This document shows, piece after piece, positions 1-40,760 of a DNA stretch of 40,760 bases. The position numbers and the translations under genes are program-made. The stretch's first letter is position 1. The number at the start of each line of letters is the position of its first letter. The stretch comes from a virus, in the IMG/VR virus record IMGVR_UViG_3300046373_000057, positions 1-40,760 of that record, one strand, 5' to 3'. The notes under the pieces are model-generated. The model worked only from the letters and a program-made list of their open reading frames with translations. It was not told the origin of the DNA and ran no database searches.

Positions 1-97
1 CCTTTGGCACGATTTTTGACTTTACTTTTGGCACAATTATTGATTACTATGTATTCAATAATTGTGCCAAAAGTAAAGTCAAAAATCGTGCCAAAGG
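1..97. repeat. 97-bp near-perfect palindrome at the window start
   Basis: Bases 1-43 are the exact reverse complement of bases 55-97; the only mismatch nearer the centre (base 49) is the pair 44/54. Each arm carries two copies of a TGGCAC-N5-TTGA element 24 bp apart (GG at 6-7 and 30-31 on the plus strand, mirrored on the minus strand). So the palindrome is also an array of four oriented elements. It could be a protein-binding array, an origin or resolution site, or a genome-end structure. The sequence alone does not decide between these. Confidence 0.95.
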
Positions 98-183
98 CAC
101 TTTTAGCTCAAAGATACTGAAATTATTGGAATATTTATTTATGGTATGAAGATTGCATAGAGGCAAGTGTCTAACTTTTAGTC

Positions 184-200
184 AATCAAGAAGCGTGCCA
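184..200 (-). promoter_or_regulatory. Sigma-54-like element, TTGA variant
   Basis: The minus strand reads TGGCACG-CTTC-TTGAT. The GG-to-G spacing is that of a sigma-54 -24/-12 promoter, but the usual GC at -12 is GA, as in all four palindrome copies. Because the same variant recurs, it is probably a real site class at this end of the genome rather than a decayed promoter. Its function is unknown. Confidence 0.4.
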
Positions 201-230
201 GAATAAAAGGAAGGGAATTCAATCACTTAC

Positions 231-250
231 CGTTGGCACGGTTCGTGTCT
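231..250 (+). promoter_or_regulatory. Degenerate TTGGCACG element
   Basis: The plus strand has TTGGCACG followed by GTTC and GTGTC, so the -24 half is perfect and the -12 half is poor. It belongs to the same family as the palindrome elements by its first half only. Confidence 0.25.
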
Positions 251-285
251 GGAACTGGATAGTCAGTGAGTGTATAAACTTTAGA

Positions 286-320
286 CAAAATAAAACACCC
301 ACCTACTAAGTAGATGAGTG
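286..320 (-). terminator. Intrinsic terminator ending the leftward operon
   Basis: On the minus strand a stem formed by 311-320 with 296-305 (about 10 bp, loop 306-310) is followed by TTTTATTTT. Two of the pairs are G-U and form only in the minus-strand RNA, which shows that leftward transcripts are the ones being terminated. Confidence 0.85.
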
Positions 321-329
321 CTATCTAAA

Positions 330-524
330 CTATATGAGGAAAGCGGGTGACCCGTATCGTGGGTCCGACGCCATAGAACCGTCATGGTACGGTGGACAAC
401 CTTTACAGTTGCTGATCTGTTTGTGGGCGGCCTGACTCGACCAAGGCAGTAGGCTAGTGGCTTCGGCCATACCTAGCGCCCACATATCCTTAACGGCATT
501 TAGCCGGAAGAACTTTAGGGACAT
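330..524 (-). CDS. Hypothetical 64-residue protein, last ORF of the leftward operon
   Basis: I do not recognise this protein. It has a C-x-x-C (NCKGC) near residue 40 and otherwise no clear domain. The start overlaps the end of the upstream gene by 10 bases and the ribosome site is weak (TTTAAGAA). The same DNA can fold into several GC-rich hairpins, including an 8-bp outer stem and a C(UUCG)G tetraloop. It may therefore be a structured 3' RNA or an antisense RNA rather than a gene. Confidence 0.4.
   Translation of the reverse strand: MSLKFFRLNAVKDMWALGMAEATSLLPWSSQAAHKQISNCKGCPPYHDGSMASDPRYGSPAFLI
422..506. other. Strongly folding segment with a UUCG tetraloop
   Basis: TGTGGGCG at 422-429 is perfectly complementary to 477-484. 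Inside it, TGGC-TTCG-GCCA at 458-469 forms a hyperstable C(UUCG)G hairpin in plus-strand RNA. A third hairpin (CGGC-ATTTA-GCCG) lies at 494-506. Similar small hairpins occur at about 343-395. The segment lies inside a doubtful 64-codon ORF. Confidence 0.45.
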
Positions 525-706
525 TTCTTAAATGAGTCGTAAAATTCATCCATGGTGTGAACCGAGTCAAACTCCGTGACCTCATGGACAGTGGGATCTA
601 GGTAGACCCGGCAACCACCCTTAATAATCGGGGCCACCATGATAATGTGCTCGGCCCTTACCAGTATCTCAGGCACAAGGCCATGTGTCTTAATCCTTAC
701 CCACAT
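515..706 (-). CDS. Hypothetical 63-residue protein
   Basis: A small beta-rich protein with a VRAEHIIMVAP segment and a C-terminal acidic helix. It loosely resembles the FlbD-like/small regulatory folds found in many phages, but I do not recognise the family. The ATG is preceded by GGAG 8 bases upstream, which supports translation. It follows the ClpP-like lipoprotein gene after a gap of about 100 bases that includes a short hairpin (ATCACA/TGTGAT). Confidence 0.6.
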   Translation of the reverse strand: MWVRIKTHGLVPEILVRAEHIIMVAPIIKGGCRVYLDPTVHEVTEFDSVHTMDEFYDSFKKCP

Positions 707-808
707 CCTTAGTGCTCCGATCTTGTAAGTAAGGTATCACAATACCGCCAAGTGTGATGCTAAAGAGACAGACACAAGCGAACGTCAGACTGAATTGATG
801 TAATGGCA

Positions 809-1702
809 TTAGCGTCCTGCTTCACGTACTGAAGGTTTAGTGCCTTGTCGTCTAAGATCGCCAGCGCCGCTAGATGGTCCGTAAGGGGCCGGGAAGCTAC
901 CTGGGTAGCCTTCGACCCGTGCAATGACCGTGAACCAGGGCGTAGGGCTCTCAGCGGCCAGGTCTGTGGCCAGGAAGAGGCGCTCTGCATTGTAGTTCTC
1001 GGCAAACCAGGGACCAGAGGCCTTATCGATACCCATGACCGGGATGACAAGCTGCAAGAGAATCTTCTCAAGCTGGGTCAGATCGTTTGCCAGTTGGCGG
1101 CTGCCCTGTGCGTCGATCGTGAACTGGCCACTGATGCGAGGACTATGGAACAGCAAGGTAGCATAGGGGAGCGCGTACCGTTCTGAGCACTGTGTAAAGA
1201 TGTTGTACGCCATGCTAGCAGCCAGGCTAGTGACCACACATCGGATCGTAATGCCTTTGGCCTTGACTTCTTTCATCGCTTGGATGAACATGAGGCCGTG
1301 AGAGATGTAACCACCTGGGGAAGCGATTACGATGTCGATAGGCCTGTCTGATTTGTCGGCTAGGGCGACCAGCTTGTTAGCCAGACCGAACATTCGCTCG
1401 TCTACTATACCAGATAGGGTTAGTAAGCGATCCGGGTTGACCTCAATGCTTCCGGTGACTGCGCTCGAGGCAGGCTCTTGCTCCTGCTGGGTCTCGATCG
1501 GCTCTTGTGCCATATAGAGAAACTGGCTGGCGTGCGAAGTCTTGCCGGGTTGTGCGCTTGAAGAGCCCGTCTCTGGATGTGAGGACGCGATCGACGATGT
1601 CTTCGTAAGGGAGGCCGGTGAGCAGGCCCCGAGAGACAAGGCCATCAAGACAAACGCTAAGGTCCAGAACCCTAGGAATATATGACGCGGTTTCACTTGC
1701 AA
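809..1702 (-). CDS. ClpP-fold serine protease with a lipoprotein signal
   Basis: The predicted protein is about 297 residues. Residues 1-27 form a lipoprotein signal: KPRH, a hydrophobic run, then the lipobox LGA-C27. A Ser/Thr/Gln-rich linker follows (about 28-88). A ClpP/crotonase-fold domain spans about 90-255, with the glycine pair at 130-131, nucleophile Ser163 (AASMA) and His186 (LLFHSPR). The position where ClpP carries its third catalytic residue looks like NYNAERLF, so the Asp is uncertain. I chose the TTG start at 1702 because GGAG lies 6 bases upstream and the signal peptide begins there; a GTG at 1696 is the alternative. The protein would be exported and anchored in the outer membrane, which is unlike cytoplasmic ClpP or phage prohead proteases. 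It overlaps the transglycosylase gene by about 260 bases in another frame. Confidence 0.75.
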   Translation of the reverse strand: MQVKPRHIFLGFWTLAFVLMALSLGACSPASLTKTSSIASSHPETGSSSAQPGKTSHASQFLYMAQEPIETQQEQEPASSAVTGSIEVNPDRLLTLSGIVDERMFGLANKLVALADKSDRPIDIVIASPGGYISHGLMFIQAMKEVKAKGITIRCVVTSLAASMAYNIFTQCSERYALPYATLLFHSPRISGQFTIDAQGSRQLANDLTQLEKILLQLVIPVMGIDKASGPWFAENYNAERLFLATDLAAESPTPWFTVIARVEGYPGSFPAPYGPSSGAGDLRRQGTKPSVREAGR

Positions 1703-2006
1703 GAGGCTCTCCGTTGCGTAGCTTGTTCGCTTGGCGACTGCCGCCGTTGAAGTTGGCAAGGAGTTCCGCGATGTTGTTGTTTTGTTTCGTGTAGTGTTCA
1801 AGTAGTAATACTCCGTATGTGATGTTGGTTTCGGGGTCAAACAGATTAGGGTTGTTTGGTAGTGTCGGATTCTGATTTCGGACTTCTTTTGCCGCTATGT
1901 CCGTCATCTGTGTCAAACCTTTTGCCCCCTCGGAACTCGTCGCCATCGTATTGAAGCTCGACTCCGTCATTATCATGGCTAACACTAGCGCTTTGGTTAT
2001 TAGCAT
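1443..2006 (-). CDS. Lytic transglycosylase (SLT fold)
   Basis: Residues 1-115 match the soluble-lytic-transglycosylase core: catalytic Glu15 in MTESSFN, the EGAKGLTQM motif at 26-34, then the later NITYGVLLLEHY and LLANFNGG segments. It would cleave peptidoglycan during DNA entry or lysis. There is no signal peptide. The ORF has a TGA directly before its start, so the domain begins very abruptly. The last 65 residues lack recognisable features and share DNA with the lipoprotein gene. The first 54 codons share DNA with the tail of the upstream gene. In-frame overlaps at both ends are unusual in this otherwise tidy operon. Confidence 0.75.
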   Translation of the reverse strand: MLITKALVLAMIMTESSFNTMATSSEGAKGLTQMTDIAAKEVRNQNPTLPNNPNLFDPETNITYGVLLLEHYTKQNNNIAELLANFNGGSRQANKLRNGEPLASETASYIPRVLDLSVCLDGLVSRGLLTGLPYEDIVDRVLTSRDGLFKRTTRQDFARQPVSLYGTRADRDPAGARACLERSHRKH

Positions 2007-2175
2007 TTGCAGTCATCACCCGTCTAATCTGTTTGGTTGCCTCGGACAGACCGTTGTCGTATCCGGTTGTGTAAATCTTCTGCAGCGCGGTCTGTAGCTT
2101 CTGACCGTTTCCTGCATCTCGTACCAGCTTTCGAAGTTCTTTGATGACTTCCGGAGTGAATCTTACGTTTCTCAT
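1846..2175 (-). CDS. Hypothetical 109-residue helical/charged protein
   Basis: The N-terminal 55 residues are amphipathic helices (RFTPEVIKELRKLVRD...). The rest is polar, Gly/Asp/Ser-rich and probably disordered. The ATG has AGGA 7 bases upstream, which I prefer over the longer reading that starts within the preceding small membrane-peptide gene. Its disordered tail overlaps the start of the transglycosylase gene by 161 bases. I do not recognise the family. Confidence 0.6.
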   Translation of the reverse strand: MRNVRFTPEVIKELRKLVRDAGNGQKLQTALQKIYTTGYDNGLSEATKQIRRVMTANANNQSASVSHDNDGVELQYDGDEFRGGKRFDTDDGHSGKRSPKSESDTTKQP

Positions 2176-2176
2176 G

Positions 2177-2278
2177 TCAATCCTTTGTGTATAGATAGGC
2201 CAGTAGCGTGATACCGATCGCGCACCAGAATATGAAACAGGCGAATGCCTGTAGTAGCCAAAAATCAATTGCGTTCAT
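2177..2278 (-). CDS. 33-residue single-span membrane peptide
   Basis: The reading frame starts with MNAIDFWLLQAF, contains one hydrophobic segment of about 22 residues and ends YLYTKD. The start lies in an ATGA overlap with the polymerase gene stop. It has a strong GGAGG 6 bases upstream, which argues strongly for translation. It sits directly before the helical protein and transglycosylase genes, so a holin-like or membrane-targeting role is conceivable. Three other peptides of the same build occur in this genome (5926-6027, 38325-38423, 39282-39395). Confidence 0.75.
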   Translation of the reverse strand: MNAIDFWLLQAFACFIFWCAIGITLLAYLYTKD

Positions 2279-3195
2279 TTGATACCTCCGAACGTTGTAG
2301 AGACCTTCTCACCGAAGCGAATCGGTACTGACCAACCAAGGTCACTGTTAAGACTCTCTACGACCGAGGCACTCAATAACTTAAACTCTTCTTGTTTAGC
2401 CTTTGGTATCGAGAAGATACACTCGTCGTGAATCAGTGCTATAAACTCGGCGTAGTCACAAATTGCGAAAAGCTTGTAAATGTACACATCCAAGACACCC
2501 GAAGCGGAGGACTGAATGTACGCGTTAAAGGCCTTGTAGCTGTTGGGCGTGCATCGGTAACCGAACTGGTTAACCACTGCCCCCTTCTTCTCGATCTCCC
2601 AGGACAAGCTATCACGTACTGCCTTGAGTCCTATGTAACCGTCCCAGTATGCCTTGACCGTGCCCTTGCTCTCTGATACCGTGATCGTCTTGCCGTTCTC
2701 CTCGGACGTGGTGCGGAACTTCTTGTAACCCATGCCGTAGCCCAGGCCGAGGCAGGCCACCTTGGCGAAGTTTCTTACCGGCTTCTTGCAGTAGTCCTTG
2801 CACACTTCTGGGTCAACAACCCACTGGTCGGCAAAGGACAGGCCCGTAGGCATTGTGTGATTGTGGAAAATGTCCCACATCTGATCCCGACTCGGGGGGA
2901 ACTGGCTAGCTGACATCAAATATATGTCATCAATCATTAGCCAGGTGCCGTCATAGTAGGGCCGCTTGCCGATCCCCGTCACGGTCGCGTACATGTAGCG
3001 GGGGTCCTTGCTCAGCTCTGACGTGATGGAGGGCTCTAGGGCCACAACATCCTGGCTAACAAACACCCGATCGTCGTCCGCTATGATACATTCCATGAAC
3101 TTAGTTGCCTTGCGGGCCATGGCGGGCAGATTTAAGCCCCCCTGCTTGCCCTTTAGGCGTTGTTTCTCAAAGTAGGCTTCAATTACATCTGTCAT
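2275..3195 (-). CDS. Family A DNA polymerase, palm/fingers subunit (C-terminal half)
   Basis: This 306-residue protein holds the polymerase active site. Motif A is SQDVVALEP with Asp49. Motif B is R141-x3-K145 through Y153-G154. Motif C is H256-D257-E258. The residue matching E. coli Pol I Phe762 is Leu149. It starts at GGLNLPAM, the second half of the conserved motif that normally reads T-x-R-x-S then PNLQNIP. The first half of that motif ends the upstream gene. The start codon overlaps the upstream stop by 4 bases (ATGA), so the two halves are translationally coupled. They presumably assemble into one enzyme that replicates the phage genome. Confidence 0.93.
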   Translation of the reverse strand: MTDVIEAYFEKQRLKGKQGGLNLPAMARKATKFMECIIADDDRVFVSQDVVALEPSITSELSKDPRYMYATVTGIGKRPYYDGTWLMIDDIYLMSASQFPPSRDQMWDIFHNHTMPTGLSFADQWVVDPEVCKDYCKKPVRNFAKVACLGLGYGMGYKKFRTTSEENGKTITVSESKGTVKAYWDGYIGLKAVRDSLSWEIEKKGAVVNQFGYRCTPNSYKAFNAYIQSSASGVLDVYIYKLFAICDYAEFIALIHDECIFSIPKAKQEEFKLLSASVVESLNSDLGWSVPIRFGEKVSTTFGGIK

Positions 3196-4385
3196 TCTAC
3201 ACCTTTTCCACCAGCAACCCTGTTACTCGAAGTTCCAGAGGCCCGGATCTCACAATGTAACCGTCCAGTTTCGTGTGATCCAAGGTAAACCCCAAGCATT
3301 TGCTGTAATACCAGAAGTAATTTTCTTCGTTTATACAGTATCTCCCCGAGGGGGCCCCATGTAGACAGGTGCTTGGAAGCGAAACTTGGGTACTTGAGAG
3401 CAGCTTGTTGAGTCGTAAGTTCACCAGACTCCACCTTATCGAGCCCAGTCTTGGTTGTCCGCCCGCCGACCACGCCCAGGCAGTCAATGAAGAGCTGTTT
3501 GAGCTGAGTATTCGACCCAATGTTGAAACTCTCAGCCTTGGTTGGACGGCTTTTGATCTTACCGGGGTGCTTTTTGGCCCACTCAAGTCGAGAATCCACG
3601 GTTGCATTGAAAAAATCATTGGTTATCTCCTTGATTTCGGCGTCTACCCGGTATATCTCTGTTTTAAGGGCTTCTCGGTCGATCTTTAGGCCGCGCATGT
3701 AGGCCCCACACATTAACTTGACCCTGTTGGTGTACAAGATCCAGTCCTGGGACCAATCGAAGCCCTTCATTGTCAAAATCTCTGACAGTTGTTCATAAAG
3801 GAGTAAAGTTGTCTCTGTATCCGCTATGTTATACTGTTTCAGCTGCTCGTAGGGGAGCAAGTGAAGGTGGGATCCGTGGTTCGTCTTGATCCCGTGGTTT
3901 TCTTCAAGCCATTTGTGAGCCACGGACTTGTGGTTCTGGTTGATTTGGGGCAGGTACCTTGACGCACATGCCTCCAACCCCATTCCGACCTTCTTAGGCC
4001 CCTTTACGACGTCCTGTTCGTCCAGCAGCTCGTCCATGATGTCGTCAGCCGTCTTGACCTCGAACTTCTCGAACTTGTTACCCCCGGCATTGTCGTCTAG
4101 CTGAGCCATGCGCATGCTATCGGCTGCCCAGTTGAACTTGAGGTCGGGATAGAGTTTACTGAAGACCCCGTATTCAAAAGACAAGTTGTGTACCAGCAGG
4201 GGGCTCTGTAGCTCGGCCAACCTGCGGATCATCCGGTCGATCTCTGTGGGGTTATTGGAGAACCAAGACTGGATACCAGCCTCAGTCCGCCAGCTGCATG
4301 CAATAGAATCGATCTTAAAGCCTGGACGCCAGTAGCGGTATTCAGCTAGGCCGTTGCATGACGTTTCAATGTCTATAGAGATCAC
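3192..4385 (-). CDS. Family A DNA polymerase, exonuclease/thumb subunit (N-terminal half)
   Basis: This 397-residue protein starts with a 3'-5' proofreading exonuclease: Exo I SIDIETS (residues 3-9), Exo II VHNLSFEYG, Exo III YNIADTETT. A thumb region follows, ending in RASGTSSNRVAGGKG, the first half of the conserved motif just before the palm. Translation starts at GTG 4385, overlapping the HNH gene stop, with AGGA 6 bases upstream. The C-terminal half is in the -1 frame. An A-AAA-G run 15 bases before the stop could permit a low level of -1 frameshifting into a fused polymerase, but the ATGA overlap suffices to explain expression of both parts. Confidence 0.93.
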   Translation of the reverse strand: MISIDIETSCNGLAEYRYWRPGFKIDSIACSWRTEAGIQSWFSNNPTEIDRMIRRLAELQSPLLVHNLSFEYGVFSKLYPDLKFNWAADSMRMAQLDDNAGGNKFEKFEVKTADDIMDELLDEQDVVKGPKKVGMGLEACASRYLPQINQNHKSVAHKWLEENHGIKTNHGSHLHLLPYEQLKQYNIADTETTLLLYEQLSEILTMKGFDWSQDWILYTNRVKLMCGAYMRGLKIDREALKTEIYRVDAEIKEITNDFFNATVDSRLEWAKKHPGKIKSRPTKAESFNIGSNTQLKQLFIDCLGVVGGRTTKTGLDKVESGELTTQQAALKYPSFASKHLSTWGPLGEILYKRRKLLLVLQQMLGVYLGSHETGRLHCEIRASGTSSNRVAGGKGVE

Positions 4386-4831
4386 TTGCGATCCTTACTA
4401 GGGTCAAATCCCCAATGCTCCAGTTTCCATTGCTCAACCAAATCACGGGCGGCTTCCGCAGAGGGTAGGCCCCATTTCTCATACGTCTTTCCCCGGATCA
4501 TGATCTCTGCTACCCAGTAGCCCTTTTGGAGAGAGACATTTTTATAGGGCCCGGCAGAGCCTTTCCTCTTTACGCGATTGGCCTGATTTAATTCTCTTGT
4601 GACCGATCGAAGATTGTCCCGCTTGTTGTTGAGGGTGTCCCCGTCCCGGTGGTCAATCATGCTCCCCTCACAGAGAAGACGATGCATGTAAAGACCTTTA
4701 GAGGTTTTGGCGTAGAAAGTTCCTCCCGCTCTCGACTGCACGGCATACCATTTATATTGCGACACGATTTCCAGGTCCTCGTGTTCAATCACAGCGACCT
4801 TGCCTTTTGAGAGCGGGTAGAAGATGCTCAT
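4382..4831 (-). CDS. HNH homing-type endonuclease with AP2-like DNA-binding tail
   Basis: Residues about 48-90 hold the classic free-standing HNH motif: MHRLL, then IDHRDGDTLNNKRDNLR and a following N-x-x-NR. The C-terminus (GPYKNVSLQKGYWVAEI..., ending in a basic helix) is typical of AP2-like binding domains in phage HNH proteins. The gene sits in the operon with 4-base overlaps on both sides, directly before the split polymerase. Homing nucleases often lie next to the gene whose homologue they cut. This placement suggests that the polymerase split arose from past homing or intron activity at the locus. Confidence 0.88.
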   Translation of the reverse strand: MSIFYPLSKGKVAVIEHEDLEIVSQYKWYAVQSRAGGTFYAKTSKGLYMHRLLCEGSMIDHRDGDTLNNKRDNLRSVTRELNQANRVKRKGSAGPYKNVSLQKGYWVAEIMIRGKTYEKWGLPSAEAARDLVEQWKLEHWGFDPSKDRK

Positions 4832-5643
4832 TTTTTGCCTTGTTTCATTTCAATTACTGTTTTAAGATCGGCCTTGATGAAAGCGGGCAGGTCCCCGGTT
4901 ACTCCGGCCAAACGTGGGTCGAAGTTCATGAACTTCTTTACGGCCCCGTTCTGGTCCTTAGATACCCTTTGCACGTCCGCGCTAGTCTGAAAGACTCGTC
5001 CAGATTTACCATCCTTGCCTGTGACCTTGCCGATTACTAGGATGTCGGGGAACTGGGCGATAAGTCCCTCTGCCACTGCATATCCACTGAGTCGTGGCTT
5101 AGCAACTCCGATAGCTCCGTTGTCGTCCACTTCTTGGACATCAAGGATGCCTGTGACGATAACGTGAACTCCAGCCTTGTCTTGTGCATCTCGTAGTGCC
5201 TTCATGTATTCGTCTGCAAGGGCGATTGTGCTGCTGCCCTCTGCAAAACTGTTATGCTTACCGCTGGTCGCCTGGCACATGTTGGCCCACTTAGGCGTAG
5301 CTCGGATCAGTTTTTCGAGTTCGGTGAGTCCGTCGAGGACAACAGTCTTAATTTCGGCTTTCTTGAGAACTTCGGGGGCGAGTATTTCAAGCCCTCTCTT
5401 GAATGCTGCTTCCGGCTTGAGAGGGTTGCCGGACTTGTCTCGGTCGATACACACAGCAAGGAGGTCTCCTGAGCTTTTAACAGCCGATGAAGTTCCATGG
5501 CGCTCTGAGTCAAGATATAGGTATAGAATTTTGCCAGGAGCCGTACCAGCCACGTGCGATTTTCCAGCGCCACTGCTCCCGAGGACGATAGCGAATAATA
5601 GATCCGTTCTGACATTGGATACCTCGTTCATCAAATCAATCAT
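4828..5643 (-). CDS. Sak4-like RecA-fold ATPase (recombination)
   Basis: The 271-residue protein has a Walker A at residues 22-29 (GSSGAGKS), a RecA-like segment ILYLYLDSERHG and a Walker B-like stretch KTVVLDGLTEL. This layout fits the phage AAA_24/Sak4 family, which promotes single-strand annealing and homologous recombination together with a cognate single-strand binding protein. Such a protein is encoded upstream at 9447-10130. The assignment is by domain layout rather than by full-length recognition. A generic phage nucleotide-binding protein is the alternative. Confidence 0.8.
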   Translation of the reverse strand: MIDLMNEVSNVRTDLLFAIVLGSSGAGKSHVAGTAPGKILYLYLDSERHGTSSAVKSSGDLLAVCIDRDKSGNPLKPEAAFKRGLEILAPEVLKKAEIKTVVLDGLTELEKLIRATPKWANMCQATSGKHNSFAEGSSTIALADEYMKALRDAQDKAGVHVIVTGILDVQEVDDNGAIGVAKPRLSGYAVAEGLIAQFPDILVIGKVTGKDGKSGRVFQTSADVQRVSKDQNGAVKKFMNFDPRLAGVTGDLPAFIKADLKTVIEMKQGKK

Positions 5644-6722: not shown

Positions 6723-8122
6723 TCGGTCTCTTTCTTGTGCCAAATTACGTTAAGTTGCGCGAACTCTGTATGAATGCTGTTGTAAAGTCGTCCGAAGGTC
6801 GGGTCCAAGATGTGAGCGACACACTTGTCGTCTATTGCTCGGACACCCCTGCCGAGTCTTTGGACGGTATTCTGCATAGTTCGCAGCTTATACCAGTGAT
6901 CTCCGTCAGCTAGCCCTACCCTCTTCTGCACAAACAGGTCTTGTCTGTCTGGATACATCAGGGTTGGTAGTATCATCTGTTGACAGGTCTCATACGGAAG
7001 GTCGATCCCTTCTGCGCACCCAGCGGCCAACCAGATTCCGCCATACTCAATGAATCTTCTCTTGACTTCCGCCTTGTTGCGCGTATTATTCACAAGTGGG
7101 CGCAAGTTGCCTAGAAGCTCTGACAGTACCCGCTGCTGCTCGTAAGTCACATGGACAAGCGTTGGCACAGGGTTTGCAGAGTAGATCTTGAGGATCGCGT
7201 CTGCCAGTACTTGAGGGTCCTTTCGAAAGTCCGGGTCTACTGGGGAGTAGTACACCGGGCGGTTCTCAGGGGGAGTCAAGTACGGTCGCTGGTCGTACGT
7301 ATAAGATCTACCAGCGGCCAGTTGTTCTGAATCGTACCGAGTCATGGTACCTGATACTGCTATCACCTTACGCGCGTCAGTTACGGCCTTGATTAGACTG
7401 TGTGGCACTCGGACAGGTGTAAGTACCAGGCACTTTTGAGGTCTAGCGCCGTTAATCGGAATCATTGCCTTTGAAATCTCGAAGACTTGGTTCTGACTAC
7501 CCTCTTCTAGGCTGTCTTTTAGTCTGGCTATCCGTTCGAACTCCGCCCAAAGCGGACCGGGGGCGTCAGATACTGCAAGGGCCTTCTTGAGGCGATCATA
7601 ACGGTTATAGCACCACTTTATCAGGTCGCCCTCGTTCTTAGCATTCTCTGGAACGTTGGTCTTGGCGACTGGGATCACTTGAGCGGCTAGATAGGTTAAC
7701 ATGTCTACCAGCAAGTGAGCCTCATCGATCACGATCAAGTCTGGTGTCCTTAAGCCCCGTTGCCGCGCGAAATGGTAGCTTAGGGGGTTAAAGATCGAGG
7801 GAGTACCTGATTTTGCTGCCTTGTGTGCCTTGTGATACTGCTCAGCTGAGTCGTATCGGTCCTTGCCCCGGACATCGTTTAACTCTGGGTAGTCGTCCTG
7901 ATACTGTTTGATCAGGCTGTTGTCAGAGGTAATGATGTCGCAAGCCGAGGACTGACGCTGCCAAGATCGCGCAAGAAAAGACTTGCCATATCCAGGCGGC
8001 ATGTTTGAACAAAACACTTGGGACTCAAGTAAAGCTTTGTTTCCGTCGATAAAAGCATTAACCTGCTCGGGACGGGGGTTGCGACCTGAGCCATCAGACG
8101 GAGGAATTTCTAGCTTTGACAT
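6719..8122 (-). CDS. DinG/XPD-like superfamily 2 DNA helicase
   Basis: In this 467-residue protein Walker A is at 41-48 (MPPGYGKS) and the DEAH box at 133-136. The C-terminal RecA lobe has the AEGIDLPYE segment, the DLFVQKR/LADGD region and motif VI QRLGRGVR. The LP/YP pattern after motif V is that of DinG/XPD rather than of RecQ or DnaB. I see no four-cysteine Fe-S insert after Walker A, so it is a short form without the cluster. It probably unwinds DNA ahead of the phage polymerase. An AAGGAGA site precedes the ATG; the start overlaps the HNH gene by 29 bases. Confidence 0.85.
   Translation of the reverse strand: MSKLEIPPSDGSGRNPRPEQVNAFIDGNKALLESQVFCSNMPPGYGKSFLARSWQRQSSACDIITSDNSLIKQYQDDYPELNDVRGKDRYDSAEQYHKAHKAAKSGTPSIFNPLSYHFARQRGLRTPDLIVIDEAHLLVDMLTYLAAQVIPVAKTNVPENAKNEGDLIKWCYNRYDRLKKALAVSDAPGPLWAEFERIARLKDSLEEGSQNQVFEISKAMIPINGARPQKCLVLTPVRVPHSLIKAVTDARKVIAVSGTMTRYDSEQLAAGRSYTYDQRPYLTPPENRPVYYSPVDPDFRKDPQVLADAILKIYSANPVPTLVHVTYEQQRVLSELLGNLRPLVNNTRNKAEVKRRFIEYGGIWLAAGCAEGIDLPYETCQQMILPTLMYPDRQDLFVQKRVGLADGDHWYKLRTMQNTVQRLGRGVRAIDDKCVAHILDPTFGRLYNSIHTEFAQLNVIWHKKETE
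7163..7178 (+). promoter_or_regulatory. Perfect sigma-54-type element, antisense in the helicase gene
   Basis: The plus strand reads TGGCACA-GGGT-TTGCA with exact -24/-12 spacing. It lies inside the helicase coding region and points against it. It may be a chance occurrence, yet it fits the same strict pattern as the four sites in the right end. Confidence 0.25.
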
Positions 8123-11640: not shown

Positions 11641-11657
11641 TGCAGTATCTGTGCCAC
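11641..11657 (-). promoter_or_regulatory. Sigma-54-type -24/-12 element before the leftward operon
   Basis: The minus strand reads GTGGCACA-GATA-CTGCA: TGGCAC at -24, GC at -12, exactly 10 bases between GG and GC. It is oriented into the replication operon, and predicts a transcript start near 11630, about 32 bases before the GTG at 11598. No phage-encoded enhancer-binding protein is seen, so a host activator would be needed. Confidence 0.5.
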
Positions 11658-11728
11658 AATTGCGTAGGGTTGCAAAATAGTTGTAGGGGGTCAAAATAGT
11701 TCGGCGCTATTTCGCAGGATATAGATGA

Positions 11729-11766: not shown

Positions 11767-11810
11767 AGCCTAAACGAACCGATTCTATAACTTAGACAAC
11801 TCTTTAAACT

Positions 11811-11871
11811 ACAAGACAATAACTAATTAATCATTATCTTGTAAGTATATAAGAATACTACATTGTCTTGT
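11811..11871. repeat. Three copies of a 10-bp operator-like element
   Basis: ACAAGACAAT at 11811-11820 faces ATTATCTTGT at 11833-11842 and ATTGTCTTGT at 11862-11871. Copies 1 and 3 are exact inverted repeats; copy 2 differs by one base. Copies 2 and 3 are direct repeats 29 bp apart, with similar AT-rich flanks. The arrangement suits binding of a dimeric regulator. Confidence 0.6.
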
Positions 11872-11890
11872 AACATATTATAATTATAGT

Positions 11891-11912
11891 AGGTAGTCTA
11901 TTTAGACTGCCT
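11891..11912 (+). promoter_or_regulatory. 5' leader stem-loop
   Basis: AGGTAGTCTA and TAGACTGCCT pair over 10 bases (one G-U pair in the plus-strand RNA). The hairpin lies 16 bases before the AGGAG site of the first rightward gene. It could stabilise the transcript or be a processing site. No long U run follows, so it is not a normal terminator. Confidence 0.45.
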
Positions 11913-21163: not shown

Positions 21164-24067
21164 ATGATTCAAACAACAAGTATTGACCTCCAATTTACCG
21201 AGGGTACTGACAGTAAGACGGACAGTAAGAATACCGCTTACACGTCTTTTACCACTCTTCAAAACTCTCGCTACAGTAAGATTGGCGCTGTGGTACCGCG
21301 CGGGGGGTTCTCCCTCGTCGGCCTTAACATCACTTCGGCAAGCTCCTCTGGCGACAACATTACAGCCGACAATGACCACATCGTTACCAAGAACAATGAG
21401 TCCTTGTACACGATCGGGGCGGCATCTACGTCGATCAAGATCGGCTCTGAGCTGGCAGGCGGCTATAAGCGTCTGTACGGCGGCGACGCCCTCCCTTTGA
21501 TCAATACCGTGTCGTCTCAGACCTTTAGTGGCACGACCTATGTGGTCCAAGTCTGGGCAACTGCCGACAATGCTACGACGGGCCGAGTTGGTGTAGCCGT
21601 TTACGACGCTACCACCGATCGAGTCGTCGCCAAGGGGACGTCTAACCTGTTTGCAGTACGTAGCCTTCAGCTGGTCACGACAAGCACGGGCGCTATGTAC
21701 CTGATTGCAGAGAACACTTCTTTTGACCTACTGGCCTACGATATTAACGTTTTTGCTACCAGCACTAGCGGTATCATTAACAGCAACTTTACGTGGGCGA
21801 ACTCCCCTACAGGCACCACGGCGATGCGTTGGGCAGCCACGGCTAGCGGCACGACCTTTACGGTCATCTGGGCAGAGGATGATTCGGTCAACGTCAAGAT
21901 GCAACAATTCAGCAGCTTTAACACTGCCCCAGCACCTACGACTGTCTTGACATTTTCTAACCCTGCTCGAGCCCTGGCGATCACGCCCGTGACGACACAA
22001 GGTAGCGCAACTGTTATGGTGGTCGCATCTTGCTCTGTAACACCCACAATCGCTGCCAAGTTCTATACGAACACGGGCACCCTTGTAGGAACACAACAAA
22101 CCCTATCTTCCGCTGGCCCTGGCCAGATTCGAAGCTGGGCATTTGAGACTTCTACAACTCCCACATACGGTTACACTTTCACAGCTTCAGGGCTGACGAC
22201 CACCGTACAATATTCGATCACAAGCTCTTCGATCTCGGCCCAGACCAGCTACCAAGTTGGAGTAATCCCGGTATCGGCCCCTACAACCGGCTCTGTCATG
22301 CTCTTGGACTCTTACACAGAGCCCACTTACGGCAGCCAGGCGATGATTTCCATGATCCAGGGTACTCAATCTAGTCTGGGCACCATGGGCGTAGGTATGA
22401 ACCTTGGGCAGCTCCTGGACTCGGAAGCGCACCAGCTTGACCGTCCAGTAGTGGTCGGAACTAAGACCTACTTCACGTCCCCCGTCATTACAGCGGTTGA
22501 CGGCTTTCTGCCCCCCGCAAGTTCGGGTATTTCAAAGACGATAATAACGCCAAAGATACAAGCCAGCCTTGTGCTTTACGATTCGTCGGAACTCTTGCCC
22601 ACTCAACTGGAGCGATCTAAGCAGCAATCATTGTACATGGGCGGCACAACCCGCGTCATCGGTGCAGCGGAGAGAACGGGAACACCTTGGCCCGAGATGA
22701 CAACAACCTTGTCAAGTTTGGCTCTGGTAGCTGGGTCACACGCGGCCAGAACGATCTCTTATGTGTTTGCTAAGGTGTGGAAATCTGCGGAAGGTGTCGA
22801 ATATCGGGCCTACAGCACGATCTATACCGCCGTACATACTGCCGCCACGTCTCTTCAGTACAACCTTAAGAGCACGGACTTCACAACCTACAACCCCTCT
22901 AACCCCGTAACATCTGTTGAGATGTACCGGACGGAAGAGAACGGTATCATCTTCTACTTGGCGGAAACTAGAACGGCTGCTGGTACTTACACCGACGCCT
23001 CTACTGACGCCTCTCTATTGGGTGCCCGAACAGCTGACATAAACGGCAATGAACTGCCTCCTCAAGCCATTCCATCGATCCGAGCTATATCAAGCTGGGG
23101 TGACAGGATTGCTTTTGTCGGACCGGACAAGCCTTCTACAGTCTTGTTTGACCGCCCTAGCTTCTATCCCGTGGGCACTAGCTCTGCAAACGGTTTGGAA
23201 GTTGAAGTACCTTCGGAAGGTGGCGACATTACTGCTCTACAAGACATGGATTCGGCACTATACGTCTTTAAAGACAACGCCGTGTTCACGATCTACGGAG
23301 ACCCGGCAGGTGCTACAGGCGAGAACAGCACGCTAAGTGTCCCTAAGATCTTGTTTAACGGAACAGGATGTGTGGACCCCAGAAGCGTGATTCTGACCCC
23401 CAAAGGTATCGTCTTTAAATCAGGCAAGGGGTTTTACCTGATCGCCCGAAACCAGGCTTTGACTTTTATTGGACAAGGTCCATTCGGTGTCCTAACAACG
23501 TCTTGTGTCGGTGCTCAGATTGCCCAAAACCAGTACGAAGTCTACTTCGCACACGCTAACGGCACTATCTGGACACTCAACATGGACACCATGGCTTGGT
23601 ACGACTGGATAACGACACACAATGCAAGGGGTATCGCTACCTCTAGCGGAAGCCTACTAACCACTGGTGAAATCGGCGTTTACAAGTACGTAGAAACTAA
23701 CACCAGTGACCCAATCGGCGGGGTAATCCCACAAGACATACGCACTGGCTGGGTAAGAATGAACCACGTCAGAGGCTTTCAGCGCATACGAAGAGCTTAT
23801 ATAGTTGGATCATGCACAGTATCTTGTGCTCTGACTGTAAGGATCTATACGGATTACAGCGCTACGCCTGTGCAAACATTCAACTTTAACATCACTCCGA
23901 CAGACCCTCTGCAGATTGACCTCCATATGGCGGTTCAAAAATGTGAGGCTATGTCATTCAGGTTCACGACTGACAAGGCAGGCTTGACGATCTCGGGGGC
24001 AACTCTCGAAGTCGGTATCAAAGACGGCCCTGATAAGTCACGCACTTCCGGTTCAAACTTAAAATAA
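21164..24067 (+). CDS. Tail nozzle (tubular protein B-like)
   Basis: This 967-residue, strongly beta-rich protein follows the adaptor genes, as gp12-like nozzle proteins do. The first two-thirds consist of repeated Thr/Ser-rich strands. The later region DRIAFVGPDKPSTVLFDRP, the DMDSALYVFKDNAVFTIYGDP block and IWTLNMDTMAWYDW are typical of podovirus nozzle propeller domains. It would form the distal tube through which DNA leaves. AAGGAGGA precedes the ATG. Confidence 0.8.
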   Translation: MIQTTSIDLQFTEGTDSKTDSKNTAYTSFTTLQNSRYSKIGAVVPRGGFSLVGLNITSASSSGDNITADNDHIVTKNNESLYTIGAASTSIKIGSELAGGYKRLYGGDALPLINTVSSQTFSGTTYVVQVWATADNATTGRVGVAVYDATTDRVVAKGTSNLFAVRSLQLVTTSTGAMYLIAENTSFDLLAYDINVFATSTSGIINSNFTWANSPTGTTAMRWAATASGTTFTVIWAEDDSVNVKMQQFSSFNTAPAPTTVLTFSNPARALAITPVTTQGSATVMVVASCSVTPTIAAKFYTNTGTLVGTQQTLSSAGPGQIRSWAFETSTTPTYGYTFTASGLTTTVQYSITSSSISAQTSYQVGVIPVSAPTTGSVMLLDSYTEPTYGSQAMISMIQGTQSSLGTMGVGMNLGQLLDSEAHQLDRPVVVGTKTYFTSPVITAVDGFLPPASSGISKTIITPKIQASLVLYDSSELLPTQLERSKQQSLYMGGTTRVIGAAERTGTPWPEMTTTLSSLALVAGSHAARTISYVFAKVWKSAEGVEYRAYSTIYTAVHTAATSLQYNLKSTDFTTYNPSNPVTSVEMYRTEENGIIFYLAETRTAAGTYTDASTDASLLGARTADINGNELPPQAIPSIRAISSWGDRIAFVGPDKPSTVLFDRPSFYPVGTSSANGLEVEVPSEGGDITALQDMDSALYVFKDNAVFTIYGDPAGATGENSTLSVPKILFNGTGCVDPRSVILTPKGIVFKSGKGFYLIARNQALTFIGQGPFGVLTTSCVGAQIAQNQYEVYFAHANGTIWTLNMDTMAWYDWITTHNARGIATSSGSLLTTGEIGVYKYVETNTSDPIGGVIPQDIRTGWVRMNHVRGFQRIRRAYIVGSCTVSCALTVRIYTDYSATPVQTFNFNITPTDPLQIDLHMAVQKCEAMSFRFTTDKAGLTISGATLEVGIKDGPDKSRTSGSNLK

Positions 24068-35358: not shown

Positions 35359-35480
35359 AGTACCATACTTGGCGACTTAAGAAGTACTACAAATGGCCAG
35401 TCTTGCACATCATAACGCCGTTTAAGCTGGTCGAGATCTCATTCCGAAATACTAATCACGTTTTTACCTGGAGCAAGTAA
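35355..35480 (+). CDS. Hypothetical 41-residue basic aromatic peptide
   Basis: The frame reads MKYHTWRLKKYYKWPVLHII at its start and ends FTWSK. The peptide is very basic and aromatic, and may associate with membrane or nucleic acid. Its start overlaps the preceding stop by 4 bases; its TAA shares a base with the next ATG. Confidence 0.55.
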   Translation: MKYHTWRLKKYYKWPVLHIITPFKLVEISFRNTNHVFTWSK

Positions 35481-35908
35481 TGGCATACAACATAGACGAG
35501 AAGAGCGGGAACGTGGAGTGGGTGAATCTACCTCATCGGCTTACCCCGTACCAGGAGAAGCAGATCGAAATCAATAAGCTTGAGGACTTGTACCCCGGCG
35601 AGGGGGTCAAGCACGACCAGGACAAGCTACCCTACCACCTGCTGTCAGTGTGCGCAACAGAAGAGATGCTGAAGGTCCTGGCGTTTGGTGCGGCCAAATA
35701 CAGCGAGAACAATTGGCGTAAGGGATTTAAGTGGACCCGCCTACTAGCTGCTGCCAGCCGCCACCTGTTCGCCTACATGCGCGGGGAGGACCGGGATCCA
35801 GAGACCGGGTGCCTCCATACCGCCCACCTGATGTGCTGTGCCATGTTCCTAACTGAGCATTCTATTCGTAAACTCGGTCAAGACGACCGCTACAAGGAGA
35901 CAGTATGA
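35480..35908 (+). CDS. dATP/dGTP pyrophosphohydrolase-like protein (DUF5664)
   Basis: The 142-residue all-helical protein has the family hallmarks KHDQDKLPYHLLS, LAFGAAKYSENNWRKG and HLFAYMRGEDRDPETG-x-LH. This matches the DUF5664/MazG-superfamily proteins found in many phages, of which MazZ of 2-aminoadenine phages is a relative. It would hydrolyse purine dNTPs to monophosphates. No PurZ or DatZ homologue is seen here, so base Z in this genome is not supported. It probably adjusts nucleotide pools. Confidence 0.75.
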   Translation: MAYNIDEKSGNVEWVNLPHRLTPYQEKQIEINKLEDLYPGEGVKHDQDKLPYHLLSVCATEEMLKVLAFGAAKYSENNWRKGFKWTRLLAAASRHLFAYMRGEDRDPETGCLHTAHLMCCAMFLTEHSIRKLGQDDRYKETV

Positions 35909-40043: not shown

Positions 40044-40294
40044 ATGCATATAAGTCCTATCCTAAGAACAGCCTACCACACGAGCTACGGTGCCCTCACA
40101 CGACGGCTGAAATGAGGCCCTTAGCCTGTGTAGACTGCACAGCTGACGAGCTTCTAGCGGTGTTCCTAGAGCTTAAGAGAAGCTACTACAGTGGCGTGGA
40201 GCTTATGGGTGAGAAGGAGTACGACAGGTTCGAAGCCTATCTGTGGGCTAGGTTCCCAGAAGATGGGCGATTCAAAGTAGTTGGATCTAAGTAG
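40040..40294 (+). CDS. Small protein with cysteines and a DNA-ligase-Ia-like segment
   Basis: The 84-residue GTG-started protein has C-P-H...C-V-D-C (a possible zinc knuckle, residues about 18-33). Its second half (LKRSYYSGVELMGEKEYDRF and FPED) resembles the YY-x-E-x-x-M-x-x-x-EYD pattern of domain Ia of NAD-dependent DNA ligases, which recognises nicotinamide. The rest of a ligase is absent. It is the last gene of the rightward block. Confidence 0.55.
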   Translation: MNAYKSYPKNSLPHELRCPHTTAEMRPLACVDCTADELLAVFLELKRSYYSGVELMGEKEYDRFEAYLWARFPEDGRFKVVGSK

Positions 40295-40344: not shown

Positions 40345-40361
40345 GGCAACTTTCATGCCAA
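40345..40361 (-). promoter_or_regulatory. Sigma-54-type element
   Basis: The minus strand reads TTTGGCATG-AAAG-TTGCC: GG and GC 10 bases apart, as required for -24/-12 promoters. It points leftward into the small-gene block (antisense). Confidence 0.5.
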
Positions 40362-40452
40362 AGCTGTAACCGCGTGTTTTGATTAATATTCCCGGCCCTC
40401 CATACCCCGCCATCCGTAACTATACTGATATCATTGCCCTTTCTTTTCCCCT

Positions 40453-40469
40453 TGCAACTATCATGCCAT
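40453..40469 (-). promoter_or_regulatory. Sigma-54-type element
   Basis: The minus strand reads TGGCATG-ATAG-TTGCA, an almost ideal -24/-12 match, pointing leftward. It is about 108 bp from the previous site. Confidence 0.5.
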
Positions 40470-40607
40470 CACCCCCTGTCGCCATTTTAAGCCCCCTTCC
40501 TTCTAGCCCTCATCACCCTATTGCCTTGTTCATTCTCGTCGATCCTAGGCCATCCTCGTCAACCGCACAAGGTTCGCTTTCGCCTACCGAGCTGTCAACA
40601 TAGGGCT

Positions 40608-40625
40608 TTGGCACACTCCTTGCTA
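40608..40625 (+). promoter_or_regulatory. Sigma-54-type element, plus strand
   Basis: The plus strand reads TTTGGCACA-CTCC-TTGCT with exact spacing. It points toward the window end, and across the junction if the genome ends join. Confidence 0.5.
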
Positions 40626-40691
40626 CGCCACATTCCATGCCAACCGCACCCTAATCTCAATCTATACATTATCGTAATAACAACTCCCCCT

Positions 40692-40708
40692 TGCAAGTTT
40701 CGTGCCAG
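40692..40708 (-). promoter_or_regulatory. Perfect sigma-54 consensus element
   Basis: The minus strand reads CTGGCACG-AAAC-TTGCA, identical to the textbook consensus YTGGCACG-N4-TTGCA. It points leftward. Confidence 0.55.
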
Positions 40709-40760
40709 GTATACTTATTGCATGGCAAACCGCACTGCTGTTCTGTGTTCATCGTGAGTA

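Follow-up and report, generated by a model that had tools for sequence, protein, structure and literature searches.

The window, the whole stretch of DNA that was analysed, is the whole of an IMG/VR virus record, a linear contig of 40,760 bases (positions 1-40,760). Its genes are arranged in two divergent arms, with replication leftward and packaging and head formation rightward:

Leftward, replication arm: family-A DNA polymerase, helicase, Sak4-like annealing protein and single-strand binding protein
Rightward arm: maturation protease, terminase, head-tail adaptor (portal-like) and capsid

The family-A DNA polymerase is divided over two abutting genes on the minus strand (N part, 3192-4385; C part, 2275-3195). 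Both parts (2275-4385) match one polymerase profile, and a gene for an HNH endonuclease (4382-4831) adjoins them. On the plus strand, positions 35480-35908 encode a dATP/dGTP diphosphohydrolase domain (PF18909), a family that occurs also in phages whose adenine is modified; an adenylosuccinate-synthetase partner was not noticed. No close named phage was found for the window, and searches of Rfam and of a plasmid collection gave no match. A search for a single-subunit RNA polymerase gave no match, but the control genomes gave none either. The preliminary description spoke of a lytic podovirus, which is not established.

The gene-dense part of the window extends from about position 330 to position 40294, and the window ends are downstream of both gene arms. 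Sequences of the sigma-54 -24/-12 type were located by exact matching and with a sigma-54 matrix made from 42 intergenic E. coli ChIP sites (table 1, PMC4591121):

1-329: non-coding left end, six elements
1-97: palindrome with 47-bp arms (98% complementary), a 3-nt loop and two elements per arm; z-score -18
4-20, plus strand: sigma-54-type element TTGGCACGATTTTTGAC, TTGA variant, 14.0 bits
28-44, plus strand: sigma-54-type element TTGGCACAATTATTGAT, TTGA variant, 16.4 bits
54-70, minus strand: sigma-54-type element TTGGCACAATTATTGAA, TTGA variant, 17.1 bits
78-94, minus strand: sigma-54-type element TTGGCACGATTTTTGAC, TTGA variant, 14.0 bits
141-157, plus strand: sigma-54-type element ATGGTATGAAGATTGCA, 14.2 bits
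185-201, minus strand: sigma-54-type element CTGGCACGCTTCTTGAT, TTGA variant, 16.1 bits
11641-11657, minus strand: single sigma-54-type element GTGGCACAGATACTGCA in a divergent region (312 bp), 16.8 bits
40295-40760: non-coding right end, five elements, plus strand C-rich
40345-40361, minus strand: sigma-54-type -24/-12 element TTGGCATGAAAGTTGCC, 15.6 bits; strict match 40346-40360
40453-40469, minus strand: sigma-54-type element ATGGCATGATAGTTGCA, 18.9 bits; strict match 40454-40468
40608-40624, plus strand: sigma-54-type element TTGGCACACTCCTTGCT, 18.0 bits; strict match 40609-40623
40692-40708, minus strand: sigma-54-type element CTGGCACGAAACTTGCA, consensus copy, 21.5 bits; strict match 40693-40707
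40706-40722, plus strand: weak sigma-54-type element CAGGTATACTTATTGCA, 12.9 bits

The strict motif TGGCAYRNNNNTTGC occurred five times in the window, against 0.14 expected from 100 dinucleotide shuffles, none of which reached five. This confirmed the excess that the preliminary description had reported, and its four right-end matches were all recovered where it had placed them; the fifth (7163-7177, plus strand) is within a gene. The right stretch had been called gene-free, and no convincing gene was found beyond the last one. The copy at 40693, said to be identical to the consensus, indeed fits the published form mrNrYTGGCACG-N4-TTGCWNNw (PMC2725144), and its score is about that of the best of the 42 E. 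coli sites (21.4 bits). The cluster was described as a feature of the right end; four strict sites are present there, but it is not confined to that end, as the left end contains five copies of TGGCACR-N4-TTGA (5+, 29+, 55-, 79- and 186-). In total, TGGCAYR-N4-TTGM was found ten times in the window against 0.17 expected. Of the 14 matrix matches of at least 12 bits, 11 fell in the two non-coding ends (796 bp in total), where 0.08 were expected and the maximum in 1000 shuffles was two.

The 10-bp spacing between GG and GC was exact in the four right-end sites, and the left-end sites have GA for GC. A or T follows at -11 in six of the nine strict sites of the window's ends. The elements point in both directions. 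Same-strand pairs 20-40 bp apart were limited to 5+/29+ and 55-/79-, each 24 bp apart and all within the palindrome; the right-end copies are 84-155 bp apart. The sequence AACCGCAC is present three times among the right-end sites (40558, 40639 and 40725, at intervals of 81 and 86 bp). The exact left-end repeat was not found elsewhere, and neither DnaA boxes nor a known terminal repeat were found at the window ends. Motifs at both ends would also suit the end sites of a transposable phage; this candidate was rejected, as terminase, split DNA polymerase A and helicase are present and a transposase was absent among the proteins searched.

The four left-most elements sit in the 97-nt near-perfect palindrome, with the fifth TTGA copy (186-) outside it. 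As its end coincides exactly with the contig edge, the palindrome is possibly a fold-back artefact; removal of one arm leaves nine matrix sites in the ends. Contigs G870 and G872 likewise start or stop inside arrays of such elements, and G867 has an array at both ends in the same orientation, so that this contig seems to wrap round. From these comparisons, the window ends probably interrupt a larger site-bearing region that would join both ends. The term "right end of a phage genome" in the preliminary description may therefore reflect where the contig was cut. The joined region, if so, would lie between converging gene arms as in the Vibrio phage VPT02 (see below), unlike the tandem arrays, although unseen genes in the gap could alter this layout.

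Relatives of the window were collected with a terminase profile (A1); the best 80 had 33-50% identity and 48 were whole records. The tandem motif was found in none of the 80 relatives or 48 whole records, one strict site was present in a total of 871 kb, and matrix matches were not enriched (47, compared with 59 when the matrix was reversed); these records may lack their contig ends, though several are 35-43 kb. The matrix scan thus showed enrichment in the window ends but not in the terminase relatives, and the sequences indicate that the element cluster is not a trait of the window's terminase family. The preliminary description had regarded a lack of enrichment in related genomes as evidence against its proposal; enrichment is indeed lacking in this family, but other phages are strongly enriched.

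The single element at 11641-11657 points at the leftward replication genes and, judged from its sequence and position, is a candidate early promoter. A chance match in this 312-bp region is unlikely, because only six matches of at least 16 bits were found in the relatives' 871 kb. The same region, at 11664-11701 and 11806-11894, contains a 19-bp direct repeat (GTAGGG..CAAAATAGTT) and several copies of TACAAGA/TCTTGTA as inverted repeats, which are possible operators.

A scan of viral contigs gave at least 119 stretches with tandem pairs (elements within 4-24 bases) and at least 120 with triples; the reversed pair pattern, which served as a control for the pairs, did not occur. These are minimum counts, genes outside the window were called only roughly, and IMG/VR contigs are putative viruses, several of them of uncertain origin (e.g. 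L012). The contigs with arrays contained 618 matrix matches of at least 14 bits versus 9 for the reversed matrix, and more than 100 sites were found in 30 whole contigs versus none for the reversed pattern. Among 84,980 bacterial and archaeal genomes, six triples were found. Three of these were coding low-complexity repeats, and one other (L130) was an exact tandem duplication. Among the cellular genomes with non-coding triples, RpoN was present in L132 and L134 and absent in L130. In L134, a Methylococcaceae genome, positions 164-5450 are an integrated satellite-like element with an integrase and a P4-type primase, and six sigma-54-type sites are located between the genes of this element and a pheT-like gene. 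Pairs in a sample of 369 gammaproteobacterial and 395 actinomycete genomes were limited to the two seed genomes; in the gammaproteobacterial sample this was 1 of 369, the genome carrying the seed satellite. In view of this near absence from cellular genomes, the arrays are a viral feature. In the literature searched, mostly open-access journal papers, phage arrays of sigma-54 sites were not described. The sequences suggest that many phages may recruit or trap host sigma-54 in a manner absent from that literature.

Distances between elements on the same strand cluster at 26-29, 36-40 and 46-47 bp and are less frequent in between, so that successive peaks differ by one helical turn. This pattern is not an effect of the search, because 46-47 bp is outside the searched range. 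L034, whose terminase is the closest to the window's among the carriers (30%), contains five copies in head-to-tail order with a spacing of 17 bp; beside this array, at 240-330, are two Fur-box-like sequences (GATAACGATTCTCATTATC and GATAATGATTCTCAATATC). In some arrays (L036, L051) the strands alternate. Both neighbouring genes were known for 100 arrays, of which 69 were in divergent regions, 17 were sense and 14 antisense to co-directional genes, and none was between convergent genes. The commonest group (a terminase cluster with 54 loci) has 136 sites directed away from the late genes, compared with 30 that face them. The next gene of at least 90 aa was at a median distance of 306 bp from the array. 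In L032, the sites occur in groups that lie after a terminator-like stretch and ahead of sigma-70-like promoters of successive operons. DnaA boxes were 15-fold denser within 300 bp of arrays (0.514 versus 0.034 per kb) and adjoined arrays in 33 loci, with six consecutive boxes in L018. In the control regions of the L018/L036/L089 group, the conserved sequences TTGACAAGTGTGTG and ATTTTGTG and C-rich tracts (CCCCTCCCCCGCCCC) recur beside the arrays.

A BLAST search with an array led to two T5-like phage isolates of Vibrio parahaemolyticus, VPT02 and VPG01. Their strong sigma-54 sites (13-22 bits) are scattered and do not form tandem arrays; together with DnaA boxes, they are located in and beside a non-coding stretch flanked by rightward genes on one side and leftward genes on the other. 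In VPT02 (L307), sigma-54-type sites and DnaA boxes are found at 744-963 and 2890-3346, one of these stretches being arranged like the T5 injection stop signal. According to PMC13250531, the latter contains repeats, palindromes and DnaA boxes and may bind host components. In T5 itself we found the DnaA boxes in this region, and no sigma-54 site of at least 14 bits.

The base after TTGC (-11), which was left free in the search, is A or T in 96% of the phage arrays. Its composition (A 0.63, T 0.33) resembles that in E. coli (A 0.57, T 0.33), as does the composition of the spacer. Over the free columns, phage and E. coli frequencies correlate (r=0.74, permutation p ~1e-4), although the search pattern itself partly dictated Y, R and T at three of these columns. 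The preference for A/G upstream and T-to-C as the commonest deviation at -27 agree with mrNrY. TTGA variants, which depart from GC at -12, are present in the window, L032, L034, L025 and others; some E. coli sigma-54 sites also read GA. The carriers of arrays belong to several phage groups with unrelated terminases. Neither a sigma-54 DNA-binding domain above the cut-off nor an enhancer-binding ATPase was detected in 50 array contigs, and a phage-encoded sigma-54 or enhancer-binding protein was rejected on this ground. Two weak matches to the DNA-binding domain, below the cut-off and interrupted by stops, were seen in G038 and G043; weak, stop-interrupted matches of this kind at L062 9753-9869 and G043 22420-22536 are ~150-190 bp from a tandem pair. 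As the motif is common to unrelated phages and no phage sigma-54 or enhancer-binding protein was detected, a conserved host factor is its likely reader.

We consider it fairly probable that the elements are binding arrays for host RNA polymerase-sigma-54, or for sigma-54 itself, that serve phage control, promoter activity being the likeliest step. Polymerase with sigma-54 forms a stable complex on its sites but starts no transcription before an enhancer-binding ATPase has acted (PMC4591121, PMC2725144). Grouped near-consensus -24/-12 elements, in many phages as helix-phased tandem arrays near DnaA boxes, would then form a phage control region, on which stable closed complexes could produce a polymerase-loaded landing array. 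When a host enhancer-binding protein is active, transcription would start, mainly into the early or replication side, and phage development would thereby be tied to the state of the host. Alternatively, the loaded array could act as a sigma-54 trap or as part of an origin or entry-control complex. The orientation of the arrays and their placement between divergent genes favour control of transcription; the distant genes, the close spacing and the DnaA boxes favour a nucleoprotein role. Against promoters, sense and antisense arrays outside divergent regions are nearly balanced (17 versus 14), and a median of 306 bp is a long way from a promoter to its gene. Adjacent holoenzymes could not be bound together at spacings as short as 17-29 bp, and the TTGA variants, the element-free terminase relatives and the window elements that face both ways also speak against this reading. 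The window's own elements may have a similar role. Transcription of the right end by host sigma-54 might, as the preliminary description proposed, yield non-coding or antisense RNA.

A phage-encoded protein that binds the motif in iterons, operators or packaging sites, with a coincidental resemblance to sigma-54 promoters, was the other reading in the preliminary description. Iteron-like arrays, spacers with a group-specific flavour, the TTGA variants and the conserved companions in one group (TTGACAAGTGTGTG and C-rich tracts) agree with it. The comparison nevertheless favours host sigma-54, since the motif, its degeneracy and the A/T at -11 recur in phage groups with different terminases. Unrelated phages would need proteins of one specificity, and a shallow test detected no protein family shared across the groups; we therefore judge this reading rather improbable. 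An explanation by chance, contamination or assembly artefact, for which the relatives without a cluster and the palindrome that stops exactly at the contig edge could be cited, is very improbable for the window: 11 matrix matches in 796 bp against 0.08 expected occur at both ends of one contig, and further array contigs (G867, G870 and G872) break inside arrays.

There are two other proposals. The arrays could bind sigma-54 polymerase without transcription, so that replicating phage DNA titrates the scarce factor (and DnaA too) and blunts sigma-54-dependent host responses. Many copies of near-perfect consensus, the denser DnaA boxes and the strand-alternating arrays, which promoters would not need, are consistent with this, and phage inhibitors of host polymerase that also act on its sigma-54 form have been described (Xp10 P7, PMC5053324). 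Titration requires no orientation, helical phasing or fixed place, yet the sites are oriented 136:30 in the commonest group, phased and never between convergent genes, and we regard it as unlikely. The sites and DnaA boxes could also build a nucleoprotein complex for replication initiation or for a pause in genome entry, comparable to the proposal for T5, whose signal has repeats, palindromes and DnaA boxes (PMC13250531). The 33 loci with adjoining DnaA boxes, the six consecutive boxes in L018 and the T5-like layout in VPT02 and VPG01 point in this direction; T5, however, lacks a sigma-54 site of at least 14 bits there and the window ends lack a DnaA box, which makes this proposal quite unlikely in our view. 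We know of no role of sigma-54 in replication initiation or genome entry.

With sigma-54 polymerase as the preferred reader, there is in our opinion an even chance of a more general principle: phased arrays of sigma-54 sites, frequently accompanied by DnaA boxes, would have arisen by convergence in unrelated phages as a control element that loads silent host sigma-54 polymerase, so that infection, replication or entry is gated by host enhancer-binding proteins, or sigma-54 is trapped. If true, phages would tap or disarm the one bacterial transcription route that an ATPase must switch on in response to a signal, for example nitrogen, stress or envelope damage, and phage decisions would be linked to the nutrient state in natural waters. 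The idea is directly testable, because isolates with such sites exist on cultured V. parahaemolyticus, which presumably carries rpoN.

The usual account of phage transcription involves sigma-70 or phage polymerases. Among known systems, the T5 injection stop signal is likewise control DNA that encodes no protein and contains repeats, inverted repeats and DnaA boxes, and its gene layout is that of the VPT02/VPG01 region; it differs in the absence of a strong sigma-54 element, and the window ends differ from it in having neither DnaA boxes nor a known terminal repeat, whereas a T5-type signal has its DnaA boxes and repeats within the first-step-transfer terminal repeat. Replication origins of the iteron type share the short tandem repeats adjoining DnaA boxes, but iterons are spaced at ~22 bp, whereas the phage repeat is a sigma-54 consensus common to unrelated phages and spaced at 26-29, 36-40 or 46-47 bp. 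Host sigma-54 (RpoN) -24/-12 promoters are identical in consensus and degeneracy (PMC2725144; matrix, PMC4591121), but in hosts they are essentially single, whereas the phages group 2-10 of them, phased and often far from genes. Phage interference with host sigma-54 transcription has a parallel in Xp10 P7 and T7 Ocr (PMC5053324, PMC7064336); these are proteins, whereas the arrays would act as DNA sites.
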